DNA of 64,000 nt from Branchiostoma floridae (lineage: Eukaryota > Chordata > Leptocardii > Amphioxiformes > Branchiostomatidae): contig NC_049995.1 in the NCBI RefSeq assembly GCF_000003815.2, positions 16,102,931 through 16,166,930 of the forward strand, read 5' to 3'. Shown here in pieces: positions 27,746-36,700 of the stretch; the stretch's first letter is position 1; every line of letters begins with the position of its first letter. A program made the translations under genes and the position numbers. Under the pieces are notes generated by a model. The model saw only the letters and a list, made by a program, of their open reading frames with translations, had not been told where the DNA came from and made no database searches.

Positions 27746-30700
27746 CTAGGCGTAATAGTTGAGGTTGGCTTTTTTCTTGGCTTGCACCTCCAGTATTCCA
27801 TCCATGTAGTCTTCATGGACCAGTTCTGTGGCACCTCTCCGGAGGGCAATCATTCCCTGGAAGGAAAAATAACATTCTGTAAATTTATTTATGTTCATAG
27901 GGACTTGTAATTAATTTTGCTGTAGTAGTGGAAAGGGGATTTTGTGAAACAAGTACTGTAGTACATATGTAACATATTGTAACTTTACAGCAAGATCATA
28001 CCAGAAGTCAAATTGCAAACAAAGTAAAGCAGTGGCATACAGAATTGTATACTTAACAAAGAATGAAAATGAAATATATAGATAAATTAGACGGAAGATG
28101 ACATCAATTCTGAATCCATGGAAATGCTGGGACCGCTACACATATCTCAAAAAAGGAAACAGAAGGTCATCCTTTTCTATCCTGTTAATCTTTGAATGCA
28201 TGAGCACTGTCCTGGCCTTGCTGGGGTGACAGTGGGAGGGTCAGAAAGTAAAAAAAAAAAGTATCATAGAATTTAATAGAAAAACCAACTCACAGCTTCC
28301 ACACACACAGCCTTGAGTTGTGCCCCATTGAAGTCATCTGTACAGCGAGCCAGCTCCTCAAAGTTTACATCGGGACTGAAAAAAAAAAAATATTGCAATT
28401 CAACCACTTTGAAAAGTATACTAGAAAGCATCGCAGTTCGTAGATGAACTAAATACTGTACATTGAGTCTGTCTTCCGTCACGACCAGTGGACGAATAGC
28501 TCTTCAGTGAGTTTAACTGGAATGACAGCACTTTCCTTTTTTCTTTTCTCTTTAAAAGGTACAAACTTTACCTGACATTCATCTTATGATAGTGGATCTG
28601 TTTCTCCCCCTCTCTCTCTCCCTTCCTTTTCTTTCTCACTGTCTCACCTGACGTTCATCTTGCGGGAGTTGATCTGTTTTTCTCTTTTCCTTTCTCTATC
28701 ACTCTATCACTCCTTCTTTCTCTCTCTCCCTCTGTCTTGCTCTCTGAACTATTCACAGAAGATGTCTCACCTGACGTTCATCTTACGGGAGTGGATCTGT
28801 TTTTCTCTTTTCCTTTTTCTCTCACTCCTTCTCCCTCCTCTCTCTCTCTCTCTCTCTCCCTCTATCTCTGTCTCTCTCTGAACTATTCACATAAGAACTA
28901 GTCTTACCTGACGTTCATGTTCCAGAAGTGGGATCTGCTTTTCTTTCTCCCTTCCTTTCTCTCTCACTCCTTCCTTCTCTCTCTCTCTACTACTCACAGA
29001 AGAAGGAATCTTACTTGACATTCATCTTACGGAAGTGGATCTGCTTTACTCTTTTCCTTTTTTCTCTCACTCCTTCTCTCTCTCTCCCTCTATCTCTGTC
29101 TCTCTCTGAACTATCACATAAGAACTAGTCTTACCTCACGTTCATGTTCCGGTAGTGGATCTGCTTTTCTTTCTCCCTCCCTGTCTCTCTCACTCCCCCC
29201 TTCTCTCTCTCTCTCTACTACTCACAGAAGAAGAAGTCTTACCTGACATTCATCTTGCGTGAGTGGATCTGCATGATGCGCGCCCGCGCCTCCTCGTTTG
29301 GCATGGGGAACTCGATCTTACGGTCCAGCCGGCCGGAACGGAGCAGTGCAGGGTCCAGGATGTCCACTCTGTTGGTGGCTGCGATCACCTGGATGTGCAA
29401 CATGGGGAAAAGTTTTACTTCACTTTACACACTCATTGTGGCCTTCAAATGTCTGAGTGGCTAGGCTGGCATGATGGAATGGTCACAGGTTTGATGCCTG
29501 TTCGAGGGAAGGCACTTTACACAATTTCCCTCACTCCAACCAGGTGTAAAAATATCTCATCAAGCTTGTTCCAATTCAGAGAGTGGTCAGTGCAATAACA
29601 TGGTACAAATAACAAAATTCATTTACGAGAATAAAAGTGTATATCTAGGACCCGTCCTTCCATCCTGGAATGGCAATTTGCTTGTTGGGAAGAAAATAAT
29701 TTTACCCCATCGATCCGTCCCAAAATGACATGAAACTGTTGAACATGTACTTTCATAAGACTAAAATGACTTATCTAACCAGGAAAATCAACAACATGGG
29801 CTTCAAAACAATGAGTGGGACGGAAAAAAATTCAAGCTGGAGACAGCCCTGATTTGCATTCAGCATTTCCAGCCCTATATGAGTTATACACAAGAAAGAA
29901 GGAACAAACCTTGATGTCCATGGTCGAGCTGAACCCGTCCATCCCCCACCTTCAAAACCCCACACTCCAACCCCATCCCCCCATTTGGTCACTCCATTAC
30001 ATTACAGTGCTTCTTCTAGCAATTTCTTCTAGAGAAAAACAAACTCTACTACTCGAGAAAGTAGTCTCCAAGCAGACTCTACGGTGCCATAAGATAGTAT
30101 CAAAGCTGGCCAAGGACTATAGCCGGCCAAAGGGAGTCAAACGGTGCCGCTATACTCCTTGGCCAGCTTTGATACTATCTCTAAGGCACCGTAGGGTCTG
30201 CTTGGAGACTAACAACAAAGAATGAACGAACCTTGATGTCCATGGTCGAGCTGAAGCCGTCCATCTGGTTCAGGAGTTCCAACATCGTCCGCTGGACCTC
30301 GCGGTCTCCCGCCTTCTCGCTGTCGAACCGCTTCGTTCCGATCGCGTCCAGTTCGTCGATGAAGATAATGGCGGGCCTTTTCTCCTTGGCGAGCGCAAAG
30401 GCATCTCGGACCATCTTAGCGCCGTCTCCGATGAACATCTGTACAAGCTGCGGCCCCGCCAGCTTTAGGAAAGTCGACTGGAATATACAGCAGAACGATC
30501 TTTGTAAATAGTTACATGAGATTGGTTGGTTTCTAACATATCAAGTTATTTATCTATTTATTTATTCAAATTGCAACAAGGGCAATACAATGTGGACACA
30601 TAGGCAGCATGCTGATATCGTGACCACATTACATACATATACAATACAAATCATAACGCTACACAACAATGGCATAATCAAGAACTAACAACATATCTAA

Positions 30701-33700: not shown

Positions 33701-36700
33701 TAGACAATAGGGCTATAGCTAGTGGACTTGTCCAACCCTGCTTAACATAAGTCTGCCCTTGATCTACTAGTAATAGGTAGACTTTAGATTTAGATACGGG
33801 CTAGTTAGACAGTCTTTATGTTTAACCCTAAAACTGCTCCCTTACCACCAGGTCGGCAGGGTTCAGCTGTTCCACGTCCACCAGCCTGATGACTGTTAGG
33901 AAGTGAGATTACCTGTGATAACTTATTTCGAGGCCTTTGACCTAACGTCCTATCAGTGTCCCCGTTGTGCCTGGCATTTGAACATAAGAAAACACGCACA
34001 CACAGATCTAGACAAAACTCACATTTCCCCAAAGCTTCAGAAACATATCACATTATGTCTGTTAATTACTTCTGCTTTAAAGATTCAAGTCTTTATTCCA
34101 AAAAATTACATTTGAGCCCTAACAATCTCTTGCTTTTTAACCCTAAAACTGCTCCCTTACCACCAGGTCAGCAGGGTTGAGCTGTTCCACGTCCACCAGC
34201 CCAATGACTGGCAGGAAGTAGGTTTGTCTGGTGGAGGTTTTGATGACCGCTGCCTTCCCCTTCCGGGTGGAGTCCAGATCCACGTTGGCTCCGTCTTCTT
34301 CGGCTTGATCCTGGGGATCCACATCCAGGATCTACGATCCAGATTACAGAAAAACACATCATAAGATCTCAAATCATTGAAATAAATTTTATCAACGATG
34401 CTTTAAAAGCGGACTATGTGAAAGGATCTCAACTGCGCAAATGTTATTTTTTAACAACCATGAAGCAGTAGTATCCAGTATATTTCCGAAAATAATTTCA
34501 TCAGGTTCGTAGATCATAGGACATAAGTCAGCAGGTGAAATAAACTGGTTGTGTAAAAGAAAACTCTTATGTCCTAGTATCCAGTATATTTTGATTACTA
34601 GTATACTGCTGCTGGGATCCCTGACACCAGGGGTAGGCATCGGTCAGCTACAGTAGTATTCACAACGCGCTTCCACGCGGCTCTGTCCAGCGGGTTCACC
34701 CGTTAGACCGCACACTCTGATGTCAGGCTTTTAGCTAGGATTTTATAATAGGGAGTCCAAACTTATTGGTGAGTCGCGGTAAGTGACTATTGTAGGAGGA
34801 TCTGGGGGCATCCAGCTTCTATGGTGCAGAGTTTTTGATGGTTTTAAGCAAAAATAGTGCATTCTAAGGTATCCCAAGAGGCAAAAATACTGTTACAGAT
34901 GTCACAGTAGAAGACTGTGACCACAGATGACCTGGTAGCATCCCTGGTCAATCAGAATTTCATGCTTGTCAGATGATTTTCTCCCCAATACAGGGCGTCC
35001 AGAGGCATCAAATTTCTTGTTATTCTAAGAAAAGTGTGTCCAGATGACGCATGTCTGGCTAAAAGCCTGTCTGATGTAGTAGGACTGATTTAATTCATGT
35101 GACAGCCTACCTACCTACCTAGTCCCTTGACCTCCAGGTCGTTGGGGGGACAAGGTAGCCATGAAGATGGTTGTGTGACAGCAATAGTGTGTAAATGTCC
35201 TAACAAGCAAACTTTCATTCCAGGATGGAGGGACAGGTCCTGGAGACTGTCTTGGTTTTGACAGAGATGGGTTGAGCACTGGGATCAGTCTATAGCACAG
35301 GTAGCATATTTTGTTCAGATCCTTGTTTTCAGGCACGTACCTCTATAACGTTGGACACCAGGTAAGGCAGTGTCTTGTTGACCTTGATCTTCTCTGTGTT
35401 CTCCTTGATTTTCTCCCTCTGCGCCTGGAGCTCGTGGGAGATCCGCATTGTCTCGCTCTTCATAATCTGTGCACAGAAAAAAACGGAGTAAGACGTTACT
35501 AATTACAATTTTTTTCTAAAGTGGAGATGCAACTCCATGCCCTGACTACTGTAGTGACCTCTTAGCCTGGAATCCAGCCGTGTTGTGCTCTGGTCGCTCT
35601 GCTTCCTGCCAACACGTCTGGCCTTCGTTACAATTGGAACGATCGGCCCTTACGTCACTAATGAAGAAAAGTTCGCGGGAAAGATAGAAGTAGTGTTCCC
35701 TTTTATTACAAACTGTAAACATGATTTTGTGTGTTCGATTTCAATGGTAAGCCTTCCCGCGAAAGGGGCTTGGAGCTAACAGCCAGCCAGAAATCTCGCA
35801 GATAAACTCTGCGAATATTCAAATGCCGATCGTTCGAATGCTAACGAAGGCCAGTCGTATTGGCAGGAAGCGTACGTGAGGAAAGCGACCAAAGCACGAT
35901 ACGGCTGGATTCCAGGCTAGTGACCTCTTACCCTGGGGAGCAGATCCTCTGAAGCTTTAACTTTCAATTCTACAAAACTCCACACCATGGAACAGGGAAA
36001 CTCCCGTCCACACCATCTCCAACATTTGGTTTCTGTGCTCCCTCCCTATGCTCCCCCCGCAATTTTTTTCCTAGAAAAACCTAAGAACACTTTCTTTCAA
36101 GAATACCAGTTTAAGTTTTGGGCTTATTTATCTTGGTTTATTTCTTATTGTTACCTTTACAGAAGGGAACATATTGTTTTTGCTTTGTTTCTTCTTCTTT
36201 TCCGCACAAATAAGGTCAACGACCTGGACCAGATGGCTGTCACCATGGTAACTGGTAAAGCAGCAGGCACCATGTGGTGTTCAGTTACATAATGTAGCAA
36301 ATGTCAGATCTAGAGGGGCTCGGGTCACTACATTTAGAAATGTGTTCAAATAAGAATGAACAAAACAGTTGCCAGTGTTAGACTACAACATGTGAAGGTA
36401 ACATTCTGTATTTGCTTGCAAATATTACCTTTCTAGTATAATCTAAATTTGTTATTACCCTCCCATCTTTTCTATTGCTTACCCCTCTTTCTACCTGCCT
36501 GGACAGTTTCTTGCATGGCAGTTTTAGCTGTGAGTTAAAAACAAAAGCATTTCTGTACCTTTATCTCATTATCCAGCAGCCGAGTTCTGCTGATGATCTC
36601 ATCTGTGGACATCCGCATCACTTCTTCTCCAAGCGCCTCCTAGGGGGAGAGAGAAGAATTACAGGTCAGTACAAATAAAGTCTTTTTGTCCTGTTTTTCA

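Follow-up and report, generated by a model that had tools for sequence, protein, structure and literature searches.

Within a 64,000-nucleotide stretch of the amphioxus Branchiostoma floridae genome (NC_049995.1, positions 16,102,931 to 16,166,930; "the window", to which unprefixed positions below refer), one gene carries twelve copies of its own exon tails in its introns, each with a 5' splice site (donor). From its sequence we identify this minus-strand gene as PSMC3, which codes for the 26S proteasome subunit 6A (Rpt5). The copies are probably mirages, that is, the result of an ordinary process of local tandem duplication which by chance took in exon-intron boundaries, with copies that were tolerated there and have since decayed neutrally.

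Exons E3-E10 of PSMC3, when joined, give a product of 387 residues that aligns over its full length with the subunit 6A chain 5vfp_F (E-value 1.6e-230). The alignment has one single-residue gap, which lies within exon 4 and away from the junctions, and there are zero extra residues at every junction; some exon edges were set by the reading frame. The numbering of exons 4, 6, 7 and 8 is that of a preliminary description of this stretch, and the first exons were not located. Because the alignment with subunit 6A holds no extra residues at the junctions, we infer that the donors directly adjoining the exons (the inner donors) are those that are spliced. Reading through to any of the twelve intronic decoy donors would meet a stop 2-17 codons past the exon end, so that the length of the protein also points to use of the inner donors.

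Each PSMC3 exon, together with 12 intron bases, was compared by alignment with the intron that follows it (7 introns in all, score threshold 40). In agreement with the counts of the preliminary description, this gave 1, 4, 1 and 6 copies after exons 4, 6, 7 and 8, respectively (Table 1). The scores range from 41 to 160, while the maximum in 21 block-shuffled donor-side controls is 25. Each of the twelve copies spans the donor junction, with an exonic and an intronic part within the same unit. The copied exonic part measures 29-30 bases for exon 8, 34 for exon 7, 59 for exon 4 and 78-88 for exon 6. None of the twelve carries the acceptor of its own exon, as they consist of exon tail and donor only, and the mirrored test at the 7 PSMC3 acceptors found no acceptor-side copies at the same threshold.

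The GT dinucleotide is intact in every copy, as had been described. Further, the decoy donors match the consensus MAG|GTRAGT at 6-8 of its 9 positions, and the four real donors fall in the same range. In total 84 of the 620 exon-derived bases (13.5%) differ from the real exon tails. The differences are scattered single bases and amount to about 7-24% of the exon part, depending on the copy. The earlier suggestion that these are real copies of differing age is thus borne out in that the copies are real and their divergence varies.

Table 1. PSMC3 exons, copies of their ends, and junction copies in a ricin-B-type lectin-domain gene (positions in the window).
Feature	Position	Strand	Remark
PSMC3 E3	35341-35466	-	joined-product alignment
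PSMC3 exon 4	34161-34331	-	donor GTG|gtaagg
Exon 4 tail + donor copy	33834..33904	-	decoy exon end 33846; edge meets dispersed repeat from ~33898
PSMC3 exon 5	32833-32970	-	no copies in search
PSMC3 exon 6	32124-32267	-	donor AAG|gtaagc
Exon 6 tail + donor, four copies	31556..32062	-	decoy ends 31982, 31840, 31698, 31567; ~142-bp units
PSMC3 exon 7	30232-30477	-	donor AAG|gttcgt
Exon 7 tail + donor copy	29898..29943	-	decoy exon end 29910
PSMC3 exon 8	29243-29388	-	donor CAG|gtaaga
Exon 8 tail + donor, six copies	28568..29164	-	decoy ends 29135, 29015, 28908, 28771, 28648, 28572
PSMC3 E9	28294-28375	-	joined-product alignment
PSMC3 E10	27749-27856	-	joined-product alignment
Ricin-B gene, copy of exon 14720-14793 acceptor + head	14925..15009	-
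Ricin-B gene, copy of exon 13588-13731 tail + donor	13436..13485	-
Ricin-B gene, second copy of exon 13588-13731 tail + donor	12817..12866	-

Tandem Repeats Finder and a repeat search both confirm a tandem arrangement for exons 6 and 8. The exon 6 array consists of 142-bp units at 31668-32206, and the exon 8 array, which is irregular and lies in a CT-rich intron, shows periods of 107, 108 and 228 within 28847-29272. For exons 4 and 7 the lone copy lies 315 and 322 bp, respectively, from the real junction, and presumably these copies too are of tandem origin.

How could such copies arise and persist? Local tandem duplication would take place throughout introns, starting and stopping blindly with respect to the junctions. 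Among the duplications that span a junction, those that leave the exon whole, innermost acceptor and donor included, would survive, and those that damage the exon would be lost. In exon definition an acceptor is paired with the nearest donor; outer copies would then be ignored, which we infer to be the reason why they are tolerated. With time the copies would decay neutrally, and some arrays would expand. The observed side of this account comprises the copies themselves, their divergence without extra conservation of the donor, an equal rate at junctions and intron interiors outside PSMC3, and cases at acceptors.

Mobile elements might instead drive the duplications, an insertion near a donor leading to a break whose repair copies the flanking exon tail. 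In the exon 6 unit, the intronic half (~31642-31690) is indeed a dispersed repeat, with at least 42 matches at no fewer than 39 places outside PSMC3 among the best 40 of 116 candidates scored in the genome (513 Mb, 431 contigs). The exon 4 copy meets a second dispersed repeat that is present at 21 other places, and a palindromic block at ~30063-30211, which by eye resembles a miniature inverted-repeat transposable element, adjoins the real exon 7 junction segment. However, when the exon 7 copy (query 29850-30010) is searched against the genome, its own locus and the real junction are the only matches. For exon 8 (query 28572-28900) strong matches occur at its own locus only, and those elsewhere are, bar one short match, to the CT-rich portion of this query, in a search that skips simple repeats. 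Dispersed repeats may also adjoin junctions by chance. Elements may have helped to start some of the duplications, but it is unlikely that they drive them in general.

The frequency of junction copies was surveyed in 20 grid-placed 10-kb stretches with their extensions and in the 64-kb window. To these were added six chaperonin-family genes found by a family search, PSMC1, PSMC2, PSMC4 and an ATAD2-like gene from a second family search, and part of PSMC5; PSMC6 and exon E10 of PSMC3 are outside the survey. The names PSMC1 and PSMC2 come from searches, and those of the chaperonins from the family search and one joined product. PSMC4, PSMC5, the ATAD2-like gene, a GPR107-like gene (in stretch L027) and a thiolase (L031) are what we take these genes to be from their sequences. 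A simple exon finder, when applied to PSMC3, recovered 7/7 of E3-E9, 6/7 of them exactly. The final survey holds 152 hand-picked predicted exons, searched at threshold 34; its first version had 150, two PSMC5 exons being added later. Before the count 78 of 228 predictions were dropped, among them all 10 in stretch L010, decoys in the PSMC3 introns and predictions outside the listed gene ranges. This set replaced a first one in which decoy pseudo-exons and a tandem coding repeat in L010 had been counted as exons. Ten joined gene products were compared with Pfam and 9/10 matched at E 0.001 or better, the match of L018 (VTT) being below the curated cut-off; the L027 product, which is the source of one of the four acceptor cases, has no Pfam match. 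For some of the survey exons the end of the stretch leaves only a short intron.

Outside PSMC3, junction-spanning copies are found at 9 of 284 junctions; among points inside introns 34 of 1120 are hit (Fisher p 0.85). Donors are hit at 4/7 in PSMC3, 3/16 in PSMC1/2/4/5 and 2/125 in other genes; for acceptors the corresponding counts are 0/7, 1/16 and 3/127, and for intron-interior points 8/106, 4/123 and 30/997. Clusters at donors and acceptors number 9:4 (p 0.27), or 5:4 when PSMC3 is left out. If splicing chooses the innermost pair, tolerance should be similar on both sides of an exon, and the latter counts fit this. Lowering the threshold to 30 raises the number of acceptor hits in other genes from 3 to 5. 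An earlier, coarser control gave 15/627 for intron points, PSMC3 introns included, and 1/294 for exon centres. Local duplication is common in this genome: leaving aside simple repeats, it accounts for 9.9% of the grid-placed 200 kb (N included) and for 11.1% of the window.

These counts bear on the idea, put forward in the preliminary description, that mutation favours exon-intron junctions. Such a process might act mainly at donors, through R-loop breaks or re-inserted splicing intermediates, and place a copy of the exon tail and its donor downstream. The donor-side position of all PSMC3 copies agrees with it, as does the lead of donors in the survey, and for the five proteasome ATPase genes in the sample (PSMC1-5) the hits are 7/23 for donors and 1/23 for acceptors, against 2/125 and 3/127 in other genes. 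Yet outside PSMC3 the junction rate is no higher than that of intron interiors and donors and acceptors are nearly level, and outside the proteasome genes there are 2 donors against 3 acceptors. Published mirages, too, occur on the acceptor side, as in the globin BflGb6 (PMC3087553). A hotspot at junctions and a bias towards donors are therefore not supported by this small survey, and the donor-against-acceptor comparison that had been suggested, run here in predicted exons, does not demonstrate a bias. We regard junction-targeted mutation as improbable.

Copies on the acceptor side occur at a chaperonin exon (L038:2617-3131), where the acceptor and the first exon bases are duplicated. Five full upstream units of 68 bp, 93-99% identical to the real one, are accompanied by one partial copy, and TAG|G is present in 6/6 copies; this array is a young acceptor-side mirage. 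PSMC5 (L043:217-1442) has copies at both kinds of junction, one of a donor (exon 217-378) and two of an acceptor (exon 1305-1442), and the L027 gene has two acceptor-side copies. Donor cases outside PSMC3 are found in PSMC1, PSMC2, PSMC5, the chaperonin gene with the L038 array and a ricin-B-type lectin-domain gene of the window, which is also the fourth of the acceptor cases (Table 1). The window holds two paralogous genes of this last type, at 12479-15216 and 611-4262. A search of the 610 bp available next to the paralogous exon 611-751 found no equivalent of the donor copies of exon 13588-13731, which may therefore postdate the duplication of the ricin-B gene.

Elsewhere in the window, apparently three short-chain dehydrogenase genes lie in tandem on the plus strand at 40251-59439, and no junction copies were found among their predicted exons. 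There are also large tandem arrays at 62287-64000 and 60214-60892, with units of 115 bp and 141 bp.

Several points weigh against neutral local duplication, which we nevertheless prefer. In the first survey 4/7 PSMC3 donors were hit compared with 4/139 in other genes (p 0.00013), and the junctions of PSMC1/2/4/5 are hit at 4/32 compared with 5/252 in other genes (p 0.011, post hoc). Uniform neutral duplication predicts no such clustering. The retention of GT in 12/12 copies likewise tells against neutral decay, and the survey is small, its exons being ab initio predictions that are partly backed by family matches. It should be remembered that PSMC3 was chosen because it is striking, that the grouping of proteasome genes was made post hoc and that clusters in the same gene cannot count as independent of one another. 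It might be that junction duplications are not uniform and concentrate at the donors of proteasome ATPase genes, through a germ-line process, linked to the gene or to transcription, that breaks and copies 5' splice junctions. We give this little credence; the clustering is, all the same, the sole thread that could lift the finding beyond a known kind.

PSMC1 (L040:679-970; C1:23602700-23606800) has one exon present twice. The two are 129 nt long and 34 nt apart, and both are open and flanked by AG and GT. They differ at 31 of 129 bases, with a nonsynonymous divergence (dN) of 0.11 and a synonymous divergence (dS) of 2.1, near saturation, and both look to be under constraint at the protein level. 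A spacer of 34 nt would seem to leave too little room for a normal intron, and because of this the two exons look mutually exclusive, which they probably are. No paper joining amphioxus, proteasome and mutually exclusive exons was found in a literature search.

Weak selection for extra donors had also been proposed for PSMC3. The copies could be retained, for instance, as decoys that tune splicing by way of premature stops (poison 5' sites), and the intact GT in all of them, a consensus match equal to that of real sites and the early stop behind every decoy would all suit this. However, the donor 9-mers are as diverged from the real ones (15 of 108 bases, 13.9%) as the neighbouring exon-derived bases. 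When the minimum number of changes is counted for each alignment column, there are 43 in 194 exon columns, 9 in 28 donor columns other than GT and 20 in 56 intron columns; the 8 GT columns have 0, where 1.8 are expected, and the probability of this by chance is ~0.17. Moreover, detection is biased toward copies whose junction is intact. No clear sign of extra donor conservation is seen, so the proposal finds no backing here, and we hold selection for the decoys to be very improbable.

The divergence of the exon 4 copy is uneven (33834-33904 compared with 34149-34219): 11 of 67 exon bases differ, and 0 of 28 from the donor into the intron (9 donor and 19 intron bases). Patchy gene conversion or chance could account for this.

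An assembly artefact or merged haplotypes are scarcely credible: published mirage arrays are reported to vary in copy number between haplotypes (PMC3087553) and between assemblies (PMC3902484), but scattered differences of the size seen here are hardly expected from stutter or a haplotype merge, stutter in particular being unlikely as the copies differ at so many bases, and the PGBD5 repeats were confirmed by re-examined and new reads (PMC3902484).

The preliminary description mentioned, tentatively but correctly, that minisatellites at exon-intron boundaries are known from amphioxus genes. They are published as mirages, minisatellite-like tandem duplications across such boundaries, and the two papers describe them for Adh3, the globins BflGb6 and BflGb9, troponin C and PGBD5, with unit lengths from 10 to ~160 bp, splice signals in many copies, and cases at both 5' and 3' boundaries (PMC3087553, PMC3902484). 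The second of these deals with the PGBD5 repeats, with reference to Adh and troponin C, and both papers propose that mirages leave splicing undisturbed. Also reported are somatic instability, for Adh3, and alleles of different length, for BflGb6.

The PSMC3 copies fit this class; the class is known, and the PSMC3 case is new. A unit that spans the boundary is shared by 12/12 copies, and the exon 6 and exon 8 arrays are tandem. Like the repeats of PGBD5 and BflGb6 (81-100% identity), they are imperfect; by contrast, the PGBD5 paper describes the repeats of the globin, Adh and troponin C genes as perfect (PMC3902484). Unlike the published mirages, PSMC3 has four separate donor-side clusters and twelve copies in one gene. 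The literature search, with most subscription papers outside its reach, found no genome-wide survey of mirages.

Mirages can be seen as natural experiments in splice-site competition, in which near-identical sites lie side by side and apparently only the inner one leads to a functional protein. Four donors of this kind occur in PSMC3, a single essential gene, and the chaperonin and PSMC5 arrays are the mirror case at acceptors. As the class is common in our sample and fits simple local duplication, what was an anecdotal oddity becomes testable genome-wide.

Two further systems resemble the PSMC3 copies in part. In intron gain by tandem genomic duplication with AG|GT (the Rogers model; potato RdRp; Gao and Lynch) the raw material is the same, namely duplicated coding sequence with splice signals. 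In PSMC3, however, the intron existed already, no new intron or exon is seen and the copies stay intronic. Mutually exclusive exons that stem from tandem exon duplication, of which the PSMC1 pair may be a case, share with PSMC3 the local duplication within a gene. In contrast to them, the PSMC3 copies hold only the tail and the donor, lack the exon's acceptor and run into a stop on read-through; they are therefore not exons.

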